From the NCBI RefSeq assembly GCF_002197645.1, contig NZ_CP021874.1, forward strand, positions 1,488,001 to 1,552,000: DNA of 64,000 nucleotides, read 5' to 3'. Positions 9,776 to 26,625 of the stretch are shown one piece after another (positions within the stretch are counted from its first letter, which is position 1; each line of letters opens with the position of its first letter). The notes under the pieces are model-generated. The model did no database searches, had not been told where the DNA came from, and saw nothing but the letters and a program-made list of their open reading frames with translations. Both the position numbers and the translations under genes were made by a program. Origin of the DNA: Enterococcus wangshanyuanii. GTDB taxonomy: Bacteria > Bacillota > Bacilli > Lactobacillales > Enterococcaceae.

Positions 9776-10429
9776 TTATTTGTTCTCATTTAATAATTTG
9801 TTGACAAAGTATTGCTGTCCTTTTGCGTACTCAACAAAATCTTTATCGCTCTTATTCAAATATTTATATGCTGTTCTTTTTGACATTTTTAACAATCTAC
9901 ACCATTCAGCAACATTATGTTTTTCTTCATATATTTCAATAATTCTCATATGACGCTGTTTACGTCGATTCTCTGTTTTAGATATCCACTGACAGTTATC
10001 TGGTTCGTAATTACCGTACCCATCTATTCGGTCAATCTCGTAATTATCTTTATAACCATTAGAAATTGCCCAATTGTGAAAATTTTCAAACCTAAGCCAT
10101 TCATCGCATATTTCAATTCCTTTAGCTCCATAGGTTTTATAAGATGTTGCTTTTTTGTTATAGCAGCGGGCCTTCATACCATTCCAAATTATGAATGTTC
10201 GAGGTTTTCCGCCAGTTGTAATACCGTGTTTTTCAAGTTGCTCTACACGCACATCATGAGCCAAACATCCACAACTTTTACTTTTACCTTGAATTAATTT
10301 TCCTGATGATACAACATGTTCTTTCCCACAATCACATCTGCAAAGCCACAAGCAATTACGCCATTTGTTTACACCTACTTGCTTTATTGCTATGTGTCGC
10401 CCAAAACGTTGATTAGTTAAATCTCTCAT
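9776..10429 (-). CDS. HNH homing-type endonuclease
   Basis: The N-terminus (DLTNQRFGRHIAIKQ, then CRCDCGKEHVV and KSCGC) is the zinc-ribbon-like module seen in phage HNH/AP2 homing endonucleases. The centre has IDRIDGYGNYEPDNCQW, a degenerate HNH core with the N residue and His replaced as in many phage versions. The C-terminus has a short HTH (NVAEWCRLLKMSKRTAYKYL). ATG at 10429 overlaps the stop of the antirepressor gene. A free-standing homing endonuclease inserted in the early operon is the best reading. Confidence 0.75.
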   Translation of the reverse strand: MRDLTNQRFGRHIAIKQVGVNKWRNCLWLCRCDCGKEHVVSSGKLIQGKSKSCGCLAHDVRVEQLEKHGITTGGKPRTFIIWNGMKARCYNKKATSYKTYGAKGIEICDEWLRFENFHNWAISNGYKDNYEIDRIDGYGNYEPDNCQWISKTENRRKQRHMRIIEIYEEKHNVAEWCRLLKMSKRTAYKYLNKSDKDFVEYAKGQQYFVNKLLNENK

Positions 10430-11145
10430 CACTTTCCCCTTGAAAATTTATTTATAAAATAAACTTGTCCACGTCCAGAAACTTTTGAAGTTTTGCTTAT
10501 CGTAATAGTTCCATCTGAATGAGGAATGGCTGTTTCCTTTATTTCGAATAATCCCAGCTCCATAGAATATTGTGTAGGCATATTCCAATCCGCACCTTTT
10601 CTCTTGATCAAGTAACCATTGTCTCTTAACCATTCAAACAACCGATTTGCACCAATATCTACACCATTCTGTTTCAATATCTTCGCAAGTTCTCCAACTA
10701 GAATTGAAGTTTTACTTGTAGCAACAGCATCTGCAAAGATTGCTTTAGGTTTTAACTCTTGATTTTCGAGTTGAAGTGATTCTATTTTCTTTTGTTGAAT
10801 TTGCATGGCACGCTTTACCACCATGTCTGGATTGTTCCAAGCTTTTTCGACTGATATAAAATAGTCTCTCACTTCAAATCCTTTAGATGTGCCAGTCATC
10901 ATTGCAATATGTTTTGCCATTTCAACTGACATTGCATAATCTTGTAATTCCTTTAATCCGCCATACTGATTTTGCTGTGTAGTTACAACTACAGAGCTAA
11001 AATCAACGTTTTCTCTGAATGGCTTGAAATTTTGTGTAACCCATTGACTAAAGCGTGTCTTTATTTCTAGTGCTCGATGTAAATCTCTAGCACTGACAAG
11101 CTGCTCATCATTCTCATTTGTCGTTACTTTGATTAAATTGTTCAC
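10429..11145 (-). CDS. Phage antirepressor (AntA/KilAC)
   Basis: The N-terminal part (LVSARDLHRALEIKTRFSQW) is an AntA/AntB-type domain. The C-terminal part from about residue 130 (AKAILKQNGVDIG-like segment, then NRLFEWLRDNGYLI) is a KilAC/ANT domain. A longer ATG reading begins at 11175, but GTG at 11145 has AAAGGAGG seven bases upstream and is the likely start (238 aa). Antirepressors bind the phage repressor and trigger lytic growth. That would matter here because the repressor lacks a self-cleavage domain. Confidence 0.85.
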   Translation of the reverse strand: MNNLIKVTTNENDEQLVSARDLHRALEIKTRFSQWVTQNFKPFRENVDFSSVVVTTQQNQYGGLKELQDYAMSVEMAKHIAMMTGTSKGFEVRDYFISVEKAWNNPDMVVKRAMQIQQKKIESLQLENQELKPKAIFADAVATSKTSILVGELAKILKQNGVDIGANRLFEWLRDNGYLIKRKGADWNMPTQYSMELGLFEIKETAIPHSDGTITISKTSKVSGRGQVYFINKFSRGK

Positions 11146-11175
11146 TTTCTGCCCTCCTTTATCCTTTTTCTTCAA

Positions 11176-12022: not shown

Positions 12023-12057
12023 TATTTCTTCTTGTGAAATTTAAGGAGAATATTGAT

Positions 12058-12429
12058 ATGACAGTATTTGAGAGGATAAAATTTTTATCTAAAAAACGTG
12101 GAAAATCTCTAAATGAAGTTGAGGAGGACCTCGGCTTGTCAAAAAATGTTTTGTATCGTATGAAGCAATCTGATAATCCTACAAAGGAGAGATTAGAGAT
12201 ATTGGCTGATTACTTTGATGTATCCGTAGACTATCTTCTTGGACGTACTAATCAGCCGCAAGACTATTATTTTAGTGATGCTTCTATTAATTCAATAAAA
12301 AAAATATATGAGGGAACAGACACCAACTATTTAACTCTGTTAGAAAAGTTGCAGCAGCTAGATGATGACGAGATTCAAGCTCTAGAGAATATGGCCGATG
12401 TGATGATTGCAAAAAAAAATAAGAGCTAA
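12058..12429 (+). CDS. XRE-family prophage repressor without peptidase domain
   Basis: Residues 1-60 form a Cro/C1-type HTH (VEEDLGLSKNVLYRMKQ, then LADYFDVSVDYLLGRT). The rest is a short helical tail (LLEKLQQLDDDEIQALENM). The ATG at 12058 has AAGGAG nine bases upstream; a GTG at 12034 is a worse start. At 123 aa it lacks the S24 self-cleavage domain, so SOS-driven autocleavage is unlikely. Induction probably needs the antirepressor or another signal. It is the lysogeny repressor by position. Confidence 0.75.
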   Translation: MTVFERIKFLSKKRGKSLNEVEEDLGLSKNVLYRMKQSDNPTKERLEILADYFDVSVDYLLGRTNQPQDYYFSDASINSIKKIYEGTDTNYLTLLEKLQQLDDDEIQALENMADVMIAKKNKS

Positions 12430-12439
12430 AATAGCTCTT
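12421..12439 (-). terminator. Terminator for the leftward 33-aa unit
   Basis: AAGAGCTA (12421-12428) and TAGCTCTT (12432-12439) form an 8-bp hairpin. On the minus strand it is followed by a run of nine T. It lies at the 3' ends of the repressor gene and the 33-aa ORF. Confidence 0.6.
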
Positions 12440-12539
12440 AAGGTAAAACCTCTTTTATTATCTTTATGATAAAACTCAGTGCTTTAGGATCCTGTATCGC
12501 TTTGACCAGTTGATAGATGAGTTCTTTTTGTTCTTCCAT
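12438..12539 (-). CDS. 33-aa peptide ORF with hidden ribosome site
   Basis: ATG at 12539 preceded by AAGGAG opens MEEQKELIYQLVKAIQDPKA, ending IIKIIKEVLP. It is one amphipathic helix without a membrane-type core. The ribosome site lies in the 3' arm of a hairpin (12548-12567), as in mRNAs of type I toxins and other tightly controlled peptides. It is convergent with the repressor and ends in a strong terminator. It might be regulatory, like AimX-position genes, or a small toxin. No family is recognised. Confidence 0.4.
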   Translation of the reverse strand: MEEQKELIYQLVKAIQDPKALSFIIKIIKEVLP

Positions 12540-12546
12540 ATTGATG

Positions 12547-12568
12547 ACACTCCTTTTTTATGGAGTGC
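12547..12568 (-). promoter_or_regulatory. Hairpin masking the 33-aa ORF ribosome site
   Basis: On the minus strand GCACTCC pairs with GGAGTGT (one G-U pair) around an 8-base A-rich loop. GGAG is the ribosome site, so translation would be low unless the hairpin opens. The sequence just before it, GAGCAGTGCACT, recurs with one change in the divergent structured RNA (12691-12702). Confidence 0.5.
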
Positions 12569-12666
12569 ACTGCTCTTTTTTTGTAATAACTAACAATAAT
12601 TAAATATTTCAAATCATATTGATGAAAATAGCTGTTATATTGATTATTGAATGTTATACTATTATT

Positions 12667-12767
12667 GTTGTAGCAAAAGCTACACACAAGGAGCAGTACA
12701 CTAACGCGAATAGTGTATATCGTTAATATGTCGACTTTCCCTCGAATATTAACGGCTCCTATTTTTT
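12667..12767 (+). ncRNA. Structured small RNA antisense to the peptide mRNA
   Basis: An extended -10 promoter (TGTTATACT, 12652-12660) would start an RNA of about 100 nt. It begins with hairpin TGTAGC-AAAA-GCTACA (12669-12684). A closing stem AGGAGC (12689-12694) / GCTCCT (12755-12760) then encloses two hairpins: TACACTA/TAGTGTA (12697-12717) and CGTTAATAT/ATATTAACG (12721-12754). The latter has an inner TCGA/TCGA stem and a loop CTTTCCC. A T-run at 12762-12767 ends it. The 3' end meets the stop codon of the convergent 19-aa ORF, so the RNA is antisense to that mRNA's 3' part. Confidence 0.55.
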
Positions 12768-12825
12768 ATACACCTGTTTGAATAATATAAATTGAGATAG
12801 CTGCAACAATAGCGATAAATGACAT
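12766..12825 (-). CDS. 19-aa short hydrophobic peptide, candidate pheromone precursor
   Basis: ATG at 12825, with the very strong ribosome site GAGGGGGTGG, opens MSFIAIVAAISIYIIQTGV and a stop. It is almost wholly hydrophobic. It is transcribed divergently from the Rgg-like regulator gene, the same arrangement as streptococcal shp/rgg pairs, from its own promoter (TTTACA-17-TACAAT). It lacks the usual N-terminal lysines of SHP peptides. An Ibs-like or Fst-like membrane toxin paired with the antisense RNA is the main alternative. Confidence 0.45.
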   Translation of the reverse strand: MSFIAIVAAISIYIIQTGV

Positions 12826-12849
12826 AAGTACCACCCCCTCAATATGTTT

Positions 12850-12888
12850 TTACAATCTAATTGTAACGAAGAAAATTCCCACTGTAAA
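12850..12888 (-). promoter_or_regulatory. Promoter of the hydrophobic peptide gene
   Basis: On the minus strand TTTACA (12888-12883), a 17-bp spacer and TACAAT (12865-12860) form a strong promoter. A perfect inverted repeat TTACAAT / ATTGTAA (12850-12866) overlaps the -10 and start site and may be an operator. Confidence 0.6.
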
Positions 12889-12904
12889 TAATATATTTTT
12901 TACA

Positions 12905-13005
12905 GTTTCTGAAACGGAAACCATTTAACAGCAATTGTTCATTTTTATTAGAATTGTTTATCAAAAAAATACAATTCACTAGTGGTTTGTTTCTATTTCG
13001 GAAAC
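12905..13005. promoter_or_regulatory. Two 17-bp palindromic operators 84 bp apart
   Basis: GTTTCTGAAACGGAAAC (12905-12921) and GTTTCTATTTCGGAAAC (12989-13005) share arms GTTTC/GAAAC and most of the centre. Their centres are 84 bp apart, eight helical turns. One lies upstream of the peptide promoter -35, the other directly before the regulator gene. They are the natural candidates for Rgg-binding sites with autoregulation and looping. Confidence 0.6.
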
Positions 13006-13018
13006 AGAAAGGCTTAAT

Positions 13019-13927
13019 ATGCTAATAAATGATACTATCAAATTTTTTAGAACAATGAAAAACATTCCTAGTTCTTCAATGTTTCCAGATCATTCAAAAT
13101 CTTATTACTCTAAACTTGAAAATGGAAGATCATCGATAAAAATAAATGAGTTGAATAATGTTCTCAATAGACTAGAATTAACAACATCGGAGTTTTTCTT
13201 TTATTTTGATGATGGATTTGATGGCGAGTTCGTGAACTTATTTAGAGACTGCTCTATTCACCCTGAAGATCATATGCGAAAAGAAAATCTCTTAAAACAC
13301 TATTATTCGATTGAAATGGCATATAGTAAAAATAGTAAGATTTTAGCTCAATATTATTCAATCAAATCACACTTCTTGGGAAAATGGCCTAATATTAAAT
13401 CATTTTCCAATACTGAAAAAGAACACATTATTAACTATCTAACGGAAAAATCATTTTATACATATTATGATTATGTCCTTTTTTCCAATTCTATTGTCTA
13501 TTTTGATAGAAGGCAAACGCTAGATGTGACTACTAGAATGCTACCAATAGCTTGGGAAAGTTTTCGTGATCATGAAACAAAAAAATACGCTTATACCGCT
13601 TATATAAACATTATTACTGCTAGAATATACAATAAAGAATATGATGAAGCCAAACTCTACATCGAAATGGCTGAAAAAGAAGATATAAAATCCTCAAACT
13701 ATTTCTTCAAATTTTCAATACAGTACTTAAAAAATATGATACTATTTATCGAAACTGAAGATTTAGTATATTTAAATAAAATCTACAATTTTATTTCACT
13801 AGTTGAGGATGCTGGAGATAGCTCAATGGCTAATCTTTTAAAAGAAGAAGTATCAAATTTTGCTCTAAAATCTAAAAAAATTTCTGACGGAGAGATATAT
13901 CCCAATACCCTCATGAAAGATCAATGA
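13019..13927 (+). CDS. Rgg/MutR-like (RRNPP) transcriptional regulator
   Basis: The 302-aa protein has an N-terminal XRE-type HTH with SKSYYSKLENGRSSI around residues 27-41 and a long helical repeat domain (for example AYTAYINIITARIYNKEYDE) like the Rgg C-terminal TPR-like domain that binds pheromone peptides. Size and layout fit the Rgg/GadR/MutR family. It sits between repressor and integrase and is divergent from a 19-aa hydrophobic peptide gene, with paired palindromes in between. A phage-borne peptide-responsive regulator is inferred; the peptide link is untested. Its composition is more AT-rich than that of the core genes. Confidence 0.7.
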   Translation: MLINDTIKFFRTMKNIPSSSMFPDHSKSYYSKLENGRSSIKINELNNVLNRLELTTSEFFFYFDDGFDGEFVNLFRDCSIHPEDHMRKENLLKHYYSIEMAYSKNSKILAQYYSIKSHFLGKWPNIKSFSNTEKEHIINYLTEKSFYTYYDYVLFSNSIVYFDRRQTLDVTTRMLPIAWESFRDHETKKYAYTAYINIITARIYNKEYDEAKLYIEMAEKEDIKSSNYFFKFSIQYLKNMILFIETEDLVYLNKIYNFISLVEDAGDSSMANLLKEEVSNFALKSKKISDGEIYPNTLMKDQ

Positions 13928-14022: not shown

Positions 14023-14307
14023 ATGGCTAGATTAAAATGTCCAAGTTGCAAATCATCCAAAGTTCAGTTAATTGATAATGAGGCTAATATTAAGAAAACG
14101 AAAAAGTCCAGTTCCTTGAATTTAAATCCTCTAAAACCTTTTACTGTTTTTAATCACAAAGAGAAAAAAGTTAAGAAAAAATCTAAAGGTAAAATTGCTA
14201 TGGCTATAATGACTGGTGGAACATCCACGATGGTCACTGGATTAGCTGATAATAAGAGTAAGGAGTTCTATTGCACAGAATGTGGTAAAGTATTCAAATC
14301 AAAATAG
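14023..14307 (+). CDS. Zinc-ribbon protein with basic linker
   Basis: The product reads MARLKCPSCKSSKVQLIDN at the start and FYCTECGKVFKSK at the end, giving a split CPxC...CxxC zinc ribbon around a lysine-rich middle and a short glycine/methionine hydrophobic stretch (IAMAIMTGGTSTMVTGL). The ATG at 14023 is preferred over GTG at 14008, which overlaps the GAGG ribosome site. Such proteins occur beside integrases of Gram-positive temperate phages; function unknown. Confidence 0.5.
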   Translation: MARLKCPSCKSSKVQLIDNEANIKKTKKSSSLNLNPLKPFTVFNHKEKKVKKKSKGKIAMAIMTGGTSTMVTGLADNKSKEFYCTECGKVFKSK

Positions 14308-14493: not shown

Positions 14494-15630
14494 ATGGCTA
14501 AACCAAAGAAGTTAAAAAACGGTATGTATTCTTATAGATATAAAGTAAAAAGTCCTATTAGTGGTAAATGGATTGATAAATACACAACACAATTCACTGC
14601 GCAACAATGTTATGATGCTGAAATAAAAGCAAAAAATGATGCTCTAATGGGCATATCACCTGAGAGAATGCTCTTAATCCCCTTCTTTGATCTTTGGGTT
14701 GACACTTTTAAAAAAGGAATTGTCGGACCAGATCATTTGGGAAAAATTAATGCAACTAGAAAATCCCTTATAGATTTTTTCGGTAAAGATATCACACTGA
14801 AATCCATTGATAGAATTAAGTATCAGCGGTGGATCAATCACATGGGTATTGATCTTAATCATGCTAAAAAGACTGTTTCAGATAAACATAAAATTGCAAA
14901 AGCAATGTTTACAGAAGCAATTGATTCAGGATATCTATATCAAAACCCTGCAAACAAAGCTAAGATTATTGGACGGGATACAACCGGAGAAAGAAAAAAG
15001 ACCTTGTCAATTGAGGAATGGTTGAAACTAAAAGAAGTTATACTTTCTTCAGAAGAAAGTGCTTCAAAATATATCTCGTTGATTATGATGTATTTAGGAA
15101 CTAGATTCCAAGAAACTACCGGGCTTACAAAAAAGGACTTTGATTTCAAGAATCATACTTTGTCAATAAACAAAGCATTTGATTACAAGAGGACCAAAAA
15201 GAACACCACAACAAAGACTGTAAACTCCGTCAGAGTGGTAGACTTACCAACAGACTTAGAAATCATCCTACGCGATTATATCGCCAAATTAGATCAGTCG
15301 AAAAAAGTAATTAAATTACATGCTCCAACTAATGACTATCTATTTACAAATGACTTTGGTGAACCTATTACTAATGCTGCTATTAATAAATATCTAGCTA
15401 AAAAATGTAAGTTGGCCAAAATCCAAAAGATTACTTCTCATGCATTTAGACATGCAAGAGTTGATTTGTTAGTTCTTGCTGGTAGTGATATGATTTACAC
15501 ACAAAAACAGCTTGGTCATAAAGATGCTTCAGTTACTTTGCAATATTACAGTACTTTAAATCAAGATATCAGAGATAAAAATAAACTGATTACTGAGGAA
15601 TTTTTGAAGAGTATTGATGGTGGTTTATAG
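14494..15630 (+). CDS. int: Phage tyrosine integrase
   Basis: The 378-aa protein has an AP2-like N-terminal arm-binding segment (LKNGMYSYRYKVKSP), a SAM-like core-binding domain (residues about 60-155) and a catalytic domain. Visible catalytic residues are Arg204 (LGTRFQET), His316 and Arg319 (SHAFRH), His342 (LGHKD) and Tyr351/352 (TLQYYSTL). It is a typical lactococcal/enterococcal phage integrase of the Tn916-like class. It faces outward at the prophage end, so the attachment site should follow within a few hundred bases. Confidence 0.93.
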   Translation: MAKPKKLKNGMYSYRYKVKSPISGKWIDKYTTQFTAQQCYDAEIKAKNDALMGISPERMLLIPFFDLWVDTFKKGIVGPDHLGKINATRKSLIDFFGKDITLKSIDRIKYQRWINHMGIDLNHAKKTVSDKHKIAKAMFTEAIDSGYLYQNPANKAKIIGRDTTGERKKTLSIEEWLKLKEVILSSEESASKYISLIMMYLGTRFQETTGLTKKDFDFKNHTLSINKAFDYKRTKKNTTTKTVNSVRVVDLPTDLEIILRDYIAKLDQSKKVIKLHAPTNDYLFTNDFGEPITNAAINKYLAKKCKLAKIQKITSHAFRHARVDLLVLAGSDMIYTQKQLGHKDASVTLQYYSTLNQDIRDKNKLITEEFLKSIDGGL

Positions 15631-26343: not shown

Positions 26344-26528
26344 AATGTCTATTTCCTACTTTCTTATTTGTCTTAGGTCATGATCAAAAAAACAGTCAAG
26401 AGGACATCAATGAGTTCCTGTTTATCTCATTTTTGTAATCATCAGAGTCTTTTTTGATCGATCATTATATGTTTCTATTCTGCTTAGCTGAATCTTTGTT
26501 ATAATTTTGCAATTATTTTTTATTTCCA

Positions 26529-26625
26529 GCTTGTAGAGTGCAGTCCCTAGAGCTATCCGCCGAATGTTTCGATAAGCTCTTTCCTCGTCACCTGAAACAA
26601 CAGGCCTGGCGCTATCCCTATATTG
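26529..26625 (-). ncRNA. glmS ribozyme/riboswitch
   Basis: The minus strand carries the conserved cleavage region ATAGCGCCAG (cut expected between 26613 and 26612), TGACGAGG, and ATTCGGCGGAT (26565-26555), diagnostic of the glmS self-cleaving riboswitch. About 185 bp separate it from the glmS start; that spacer (26344-26528) shows no gene. Confidence 0.9.

Follow-up and report, generated by a model that had tools for sequence, protein, structure and literature searches.

Related peptide switches and the locus under study

The described systems closest to the locus reported here are the PrgX/PrgQ (iCF10)/Anti-Q switch of the pheromone plasmid pCF10, the streptococcal Rgg/SHP pairs and the arbitrium system (AimR/AimP/aimX) of temperate phages. 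Anti-Q is described as a branched RNA with a polyuridine tract that is transcribed against prgQ and favours termination at IRS1 (PMC7117660), and PrgX as using two sites with a DNA loop, the sites being 91 bp apart from centre to centre according to one paper (PMC5552905) and 70 bp apart according to another (PMC7117660). The SHP propeptide has a basic N-terminus followed by a hydrophobic stretch (PMC10075063), the arbitrium peptide gene lies immediately downstream of that of its receptor (PMC9765709), and the receptor clans differ in fold, with five versus nine tetratricopeptide repeats (PMC12700828). PrgX systems have been reported only from plasmids and Rgg only occasionally from prophages (PMC9765709), and many candidate phage and prophage systems have been listed (PMC10075063). 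Here we analyse a receptor-peptide locus in a 64,000-nucleotide stretch of the 4.16-Mb genome of Enterococcus wangshanyuanii (contig NZ_CP021874.1, positions 1,488,001 to 1,552,000; "the window", to which coordinates refer unless a contig is named).

The best explanation, to which we assign a probability of roughly 60%, is a PrgX/PrgQ/Anti-Q-type peptide switch in the immunity region of a temperate Enterococcus phage, which would gate a small open reading frame (ORF), ORF33, that acts on the phage repressor. PrgX is the best PDB match of the receptor family, an Anti-Q-type RNA is present, two similar dyads lie between the genes and a terminator follows ORF33; we therefore favour a switch of this type over the arbitrium-like one that had been proposed in an earlier, sequence-only reading of the stretch. 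The central features are:

12058..12429, + strand: phage-type helix-turn-helix (HTH) repressor, 123 residues from the ATG (a GTG start at 12034 is possible)
12438..12539, - strand: ORF33, 33 residues, candidate effector, tail-to-tail with the repressor gene
12667..12770, + strand: putative Anti-Q-type structured antisense RNA, 3' end approximate
12825 (ATG) to 12766 (stop), - strand: peptide gene, MSFIAIVAAISIYIIQTGV, 19 residues, hydrophobic, candidate signal precursor in a PrgQ-like place
13019..13927, + strand: receptor gene, 302 residues, predicted PrgX/Rgg-type peptide receptor and regulator

As in pCF10, a receptor of probably the same fold and sequence clade has a peptide gene on the opposite strand beside it. 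The putative antisense RNA belongs to the covariance family of Anti-Q and likewise shows a branched fold and a U-run, and the two sites that pCF10 has between the genes have candidate counterparts in the two dyads. The locus differs from pCF10 in that the module lies in a prophage beside a repressor, that a 33-residue ORF and a terminator are found downstream in place of conjugation genes, that a dyad directly precedes the receptor start, that the peptide contains no K or R and so has no basic N-terminus or leader, and that the receptor is 25% identical to PrgX. Since no conjugation operon lies downstream, we class the locus as PrgX-type without counting it among the pheromone plasmid systems. 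With streptococcal Rgg/SHP it shares the Rgg_C domain and the divergent short hydrophobic peptide, and to this extent the shp/rgg model of the sequence-only reading stands; the antisense RNA, the different peptide N-terminus and a sequence profile closer to PrgX argue against the rest of it, and the locus as a whole appears nearer to PrgX than to Rgg/SHP. Arbitrium likewise pairs an RRNPP receptor with a peptide close to the repressor of a temperate phage, includes a small candidate effector and perhaps follows the same logic. However, the window receptor probably comes from another clan, an antisense RNA is present, and the peptide gene is divergent whereas it lies downstream of the receptor in AimR-type systems, so that the arbitrium-like gene order suggested earlier does not hold.

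Receptor family and peptide gene

The receptor contains an Rgg_C domain above both cut-offs (PF21259, 45.8 bits against a cut-off of 27; TIGR01716, 45.2 bits against 36.9), which bears out the earlier description of a 302-residue RRNPP receptor divergent from a 19-residue hydrophobic peptide in a phage immunity region. By sequence profile, the best PDB match of the family is PrgX with 85 bits, compared with 48 bits for Rgg2. When predicted folds are compared, PrgX and Rgg2 tie and AimR is absent among the matches listed.

A receptor homologue was found in 43 of 98 genomes searched, including all 22 of the genus Enterococcus, with 38% identity for the best relatives. The family also occurs in Enterococcus termitis, E. 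caccae, E. ureilyticus, E. quebecensis, E. moraviensis, E. larvae, E. crotali and further species of the genus. No close relative was detected in phage or plasmid DNA by DNA search or in single-sequence scans of genome contigs and viral contigs, only the receptor itself passed in a protein database search, and the DNA upstream of its gene matched plasmids and phages in short, chance-like pieces only. The relatives analysed were drawn from the 98-genome search, distant tblastn matches and alignment scans (16 and 1 loci); removal of 6 partial, repeated or cut-off cases from 80 left 74 receptor loci.

Divergent peptide ORFs (15-24 residues, hydrophobic, with ATG and ribosome site, at most 320 nt from the receptor) are found in 57 of these 74 loci, the window included, while the receptor's own strand, used as control, has a single one; the mean over 30 shuffles is 2.6 and the maximum 6. 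The receptor-peptide pairing is thus beyond chance, and the pair, which the sequence-only reading had suggested looking for elsewhere, recurs in other prophage-type loci; the lack of conservation that would have refuted that reading was therefore not observed. In 15 loci of a chromosomal clade the peptides have 21 residues (e.g. MISLIAVVASVISVYVVTGGV), and the ratio of replacement to silent polymorphism (pN/pS) is 0.42 in the peptide frame as compared to 1.08 one base out of frame. Because of this count and the frame conservation, we consider the peptide gene real in the receptor family, with the window copy, which has the ribosome site GAGGGGG before its ATG, as one predicted member. EcsB and RseP/Eep have a role in peptide traffic, and EcsB-like and RseP/Eep-like genes are present. 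This role of such proteins is partly covered in PMC7117660.

Some family members deserve mention in their own right (loci carry L numbers). A chromosomal receptor-peptide pair with recurring neighbours exists in Enterococcus at L003 and 14 further loci, three of the L003 neighbour genes being without a Pfam match. Two receptor genes stand back to back at L074, L075 and L076; the L074 pair adjoins an Abi_2 protein (PF07751), so that a link to abortive infection is possible. In L121 (OR846600, filed as phage), a receptor homologue of 28.8% identity is accompanied by a divergent 15-residue peptide; the ORFs of this entry look like E. faecalis chromosomal genes.

The antisense RNA

A finding missed by the sequence-only reading is a predicted structured RNA on the opposite strand, located between the peptide gene and ORF33 and complementary to the peptide transcript beyond its stop codon. 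It consists of a 5' hairpin, a three-way junction and a U-run that reaches up to the peptide stop codon, and folds with -35.2 kcal/mol (z -7.2, compared with -5.0 for the complementary strand). Its promoter element was assigned by eye:

12652..12660, + strand: extended -10 TGTTATACT of the antisense RNA

The letters of this element are identical, again by eye, in pCF10 and several relatives, and it is absent from the promoter-scan list.

The first covariance model, R1, is based on six related loci and has 35 pairs, 11 of which are changed on both sides, a value as high as which was reached in 0 of 500 shuffles; its structure was drawn by hand on alignment A5, from the same sequences. Several of its G-U pairs become mismatches when read on the other strand. 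Alignments A1, A4 and A6 were out of register for such short RNAs (RNAalifold on A1 gave 11 pairs only); those used were A5 and the model-fitted A7, the latter fitted to the R1 structure, so that its counts lean towards R1. Without training on the window, R1 matches the window RNA at 12667-12765 with 43.4 bits (E 1.8e-8), and it finds 8 of the 13 prophage-type loci. The enlarged model R2 comprises eleven RNAs with pCF10 left out. When applied to pCF10, it identifies the exact place of Anti-Q (8399-8291, minus strand) with 28.2 bits (E 3.4e-5), the next best match having 16.7 bits. Single-sequence folds of pCF10 Anti-Q, of the window RNA and of an RNA from a small contig of the same strain share one topology. 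Because of the R2 match, the common topology and the published description of Anti-Q, we take the window RNA as a putative member of the Anti-Q family.

R2 matches with an E of 1e-4 or better occur in 10 of 105 genomes of the bacterial family. Three of these genomes belong to another genus (L156, L157, L158); their matches are weak (39-45 bits), with no receptor in the stretch examined, and these RNAs adjoin an ORF resembling a plasmid replication protein, a candidate assignment. Two further R1 matches (G006:C6 and G015:C33) are weak and chance-like judging by their surroundings, and were rejected. At the gathering score, Rfam yields only glmS in the window and nothing convincing within 12400-13100.

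Further modules exist in the same strain. A second copy in the genome (G000:C1:3531668-3534335; L061, L162; R1 39.8 bits) has an RNA region 82% identical to that of the window over 238 bases and a receptor gene that an insertion of about 1.3 kb, holding two ORFs, appears to have split. R1 also finds RNAs on three small contigs of 30, 206 and 64 kb (46.5, 46.5 and 27.5 bits), each with a receptor match less than 500 bases away (G000:C2:13518-14932, C3:21647-23061 and C5:22775-24152); these contigs are plasmid-like in size. Peptides with basic leaders were recognised by eye on C2 (MNFNKKEKIKALLSLAVAFSLTLVA) and C5 (MKKHKNILGTVIICVLTMAPIFPNLLG), and on C5 receptor and peptide are on one strand.

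Control sequences

The elements that would control the two transcripts are the following:

12420..12440, - strand: predicted intrinsic terminator of the peptide-ORF33 transcript, a 9-pair stem followed by nine T, at the repressor stop
12548..12567, - strand: hairpin CACTCC/GGAGTG (by eye) covering the ORF33 ribosome site, also in L061
12860-12865 (-10) and 12883-12888 (-35), - strand: predicted peptide-operon promoter TTTACA-17-TACAAT, 10 of 12 consensus positions
12905..12921: operator-like dyad GTTTCTGAAACGGAAAC, upstream of the peptide promoter
12989..13005: second operator-like dyad GTTTCTATTTCGGAAAC, immediately ahead of the receptor start

Shuffled sequence yields promoter-like matches just as often (4.3, as compared to 4 found). 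The dyad centres are 84 bp apart, and both dyads lie between the peptide and receptor promoters. Exact copies of GTTTCTNNNNCGGAAAC, a pattern derived from these two sites themselves, occur in the genome only at 12905 and 12989; with up to two mismatches there are 6 matches in the window where 1.7 are expected, and 1 of 100 shuffles has as many. The looser GTTTC-N7-GAAAC is present at 16 places in the genome. By eye, ATGC-N7-GCAT-like pairs with a spacing of about 72 bp were recognised at many loci in the chromosomal clade.

The terminator scan found 1 terminator of this kind, compared to 0.2 expected. The peptide transcript should thus pass ORF33, end at 12440-12420 and not run far into the repressor gene, contrary to the earlier description of leftward transcription towards the repressor 3' end. 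If the transcript ends after ORF33, the likely effector is therefore ORF33 and not an RNA antisense to the repressor. At L072 and L007 a long hairpin with a T-rich tail lies between the antisense promoter and the small ORF, in the place of IRS1, and L071 has a similar hairpin there by eye; the window and L061 have, in place of this IRS1-like hairpin, the one over the ORF33 ribosome site.

ORF33 and the repressor as a proposed output pair

In 13 of 13 prophage-type loci, a small ORF of 32-61 residues on the strand of the peptide has its end no more than 36 bases from the stop codon of a repressor-type gene, a count made without a chance control for the ORF itself. L101 was left out of this group, as a like small ORF was not recognised. 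The repressor-type gene is defined as the longest + strand ORF of at least 60 residues that ends near the end of the small ORF, the label being supported by PHROGs in 6 loci and by clustering or similarity in the other 7. The small ORF starts with TTG in L004 and L085, and its ribosome site is weak in L111. An integrase comes next in 10 of the 13 loci (8 cluster with the tyrosine integrase of the window, 2 are serine-type invertase matches); none was seen within the stretch examined at L004, L085 and L063.

ORF33 and its counterpart in L071 are identical in 24 of 33 residues, with 12 silent and 9 changing codons. Between these two loci the repressors are 66%, the ORFs 73% and the receptors 35% identical. 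The reverse is seen for L004 and L063 (receptor 80%, repressor 25%, ORF 27%), for L085 and L063 (66%, 19% and 20%) and for L007 and L072 (64%, 25% and 19%). Given the receptor, ORF identity tracks repressor identity with r 0.69 (0 of 5000 permutations), a correlation that hangs on three close pairs; the L061 receptor entered these tests as its first open piece only, and without L061 and L097 r is 0.61. Given the repressor, there is no such relation to the receptor (r 0.03, p 0.38). In the cases in which the receptor and the repressor differ most clearly in their histories, the small ORF appears to go with the repressor, and we infer that the two form a cognate pair. Their closeness on the DNA may account for part of the correlation.

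Interpretation and alternatives

The genes, the promoter-like sequence, the terminator, the RNA family, the dyads, the conservation and the modular exchange can be read from the sequence as such; the mechanism proposed here goes further, and the sign of each of its steps could be opposite. The receptor would bind both dyads, probably with a DNA loop like PrgX, and control both the peptide promoter and its own. The peptide would be exported, trimmed and re-imported and would report the number of nearby lysogens. It more likely strengthens repression, as iCF10 does, with the operon off when lysogens are many, than activates. The antisense RNA would act as a second lock, lowering ORF33 expression until the peptide operon is strongly transcribed, and ORF33 would then act on the adjacent repressor, most likely against it, and so promote induction. 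Recombination between phages would exchange the sensor cassette and the output pair (ORF33 and repressor).

In a positive loop of the Rgg/SHP type, receptor and peptide would together activate the peptide operon, and ORF33 would be on at high lysogen density. Such a loop would fit the Rgg_C scores, the divergent peptide, a dyad centre about 60 bp upstream of the inferred start and the near tie with Rgg2 in predicted structure. We nevertheless think it rather unlikely, as PrgX is clearly ahead by sequence profile, the peptide promoter is so near the consensus that it seems to need no activator, the peptide lacks the basic N-terminus, and the locus has an Anti-Q-type RNA. Such an RNA is not known from shp/rgg loci.

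It is quite unlikely that the cassette is cargo, steering genes of the host or of other elements and unrelated to lysogeny. Most receptor homologues do sit in other, varied contexts, but in the genome the full dyad is exact only at the two local places, all 13 prophage-type loci have a repressor-type gene before the cassette and 10 have an integrase after it, and in the sharpest cases the small ORF follows the repressor in its history. Very improbable is a type I toxin-antitoxin system like Fst/par, with the hydrophobic peptide as toxin and the convergent RNA as antitoxin. A short hydrophobic peptide with a strong ribosome site and a convergent RNA would suit it, but such a peptide accompanies a peptide receptor at 57 of the 74 loci, the RNA matches Anti-Q, and no Fst/par antitoxin was found by Rfam at the gathering score in the window. 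Pairing between the RNA and the peptide ribosome site, which was dropped as a mechanism, is hardly better within the locus (-13.6 kcal/mol) than with other loci (-12.8 kcal/mol).

Several results weigh against the PrgX-type switch that we favour. In the tree, the receptors group separately from the PrgX rows of plasmids (95/92, with long branches). Further pair types in A5 show no excess over shuffles (18 compared to 17.1), R1 scores the Anti-Q place of pCF10 with 14.1 bits, behind a chance match of 15.1, and at an E of 1 or better it misses L064, L073, L077, L097 and L111, 5 of the 13 prophage-type loci. The dyads are open to criticism beyond the derivation of their pattern from its own two sites: the looser form is not enriched in the window (3 with at most one mismatch, 3.7 expected), the genome has fewer near matches to the pattern than to its reversed form (9 vs 15), a crude test did not bear out a common second dyad as a general rule (own 7.6/12, cross 7.4), and the window dyad stops 16 bp before the -35, a position that would suit an activator as well. 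Across 56 peptide loci, convergent terminators number 47 on the + strand and 43 on the control strand, and the IRS1-like terminator of L072 and L007 is lacking in the window. With one member of each of the three close pairs dropped, the correlation between ORF and repressor falls to r 0.01, and L077 and L097 do not fit the pattern of exchange (repressor 46%, ORF 28%, receptor 30%).

More generally, the data suggest that the use of borrowed peptide signals in the dormancy decision may extend to phages of hosts other than Bacillus. We tentatively propose, at somewhat less than even odds, that temperate phages of Enterococcus use a modular switch like that of pheromone plasmids, in which a sensor cassette (PrgX-type receptor, a peptide dialect of its own and Anti-Q-type RNA) and output pairs (small effector ORF and repressor) are both exchangeable and the former is plugged into the latter by recombination. 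Phage-to-phage signalling would then have arisen independently a second time, besides arbitrium, and here with an RNA lock. What has been found is a PrgX-type receptor, a peptide and a putative Anti-Q homologue next to phage repressors. If the proposal is correct, phage communication would have a second lineage, in a different order of bacteria, which would allow one to test directly whether the logic of arbitrium has arisen twice and would offer a natural experiment on the swapping of signal and output modules. Given the related RNA-receptor loci on plasmid-sized contigs of the strain, a phage could in principle listen in on a plasmid and vice versa. In titles and abstracts of the open literature, with subscription papers and supplementary tables outside the scope, we found no PrgX or Rgg/peptide module described in Enterococcus prophage immunity regions; RRNPP_detector (PMC10075063) may list such loci as candidates.

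Prophage setting and minor observations

Two further phage genes flank the module:

10429..11175, - strand: Ant-type anti-repressor (phrog_63, E 3.6e-70)
14494..15630, + strand: tyrosine integrase (phrog_1, 4.7e-54; PF00589)

To the left, leftward genes encode an HNH nuclease, an exonuclease, Sak4, a single-strand-binding protein, a helicase, a primase and a RuvC-like protein. The order of replication/recombination genes with HNH, Ant, the rightward repressor, the module and the integrase identifies the left part of the window as a prophage. A match to phrog_2, the large terminase family, lies about 19 kb left of the receptor gene. The repressor matches HTH domains only (HTH_3, 1.4e-7; phrog_8, 1.7e-23). 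The other induction input that the sequence-only reading called for is present in the form of the Ant-type gene.

The slot between receptor and integrase (14023-14307) holds a different gene in each of the phages of the window, L071, L073 and L007; its product is zinc-ribbon-like in the window and, by the first residues, lipoprotein- or membrane-like in the other three. The glmS ribozyme at 26476-26624 (RF00234, 87.8 bits) is an ordinary one.
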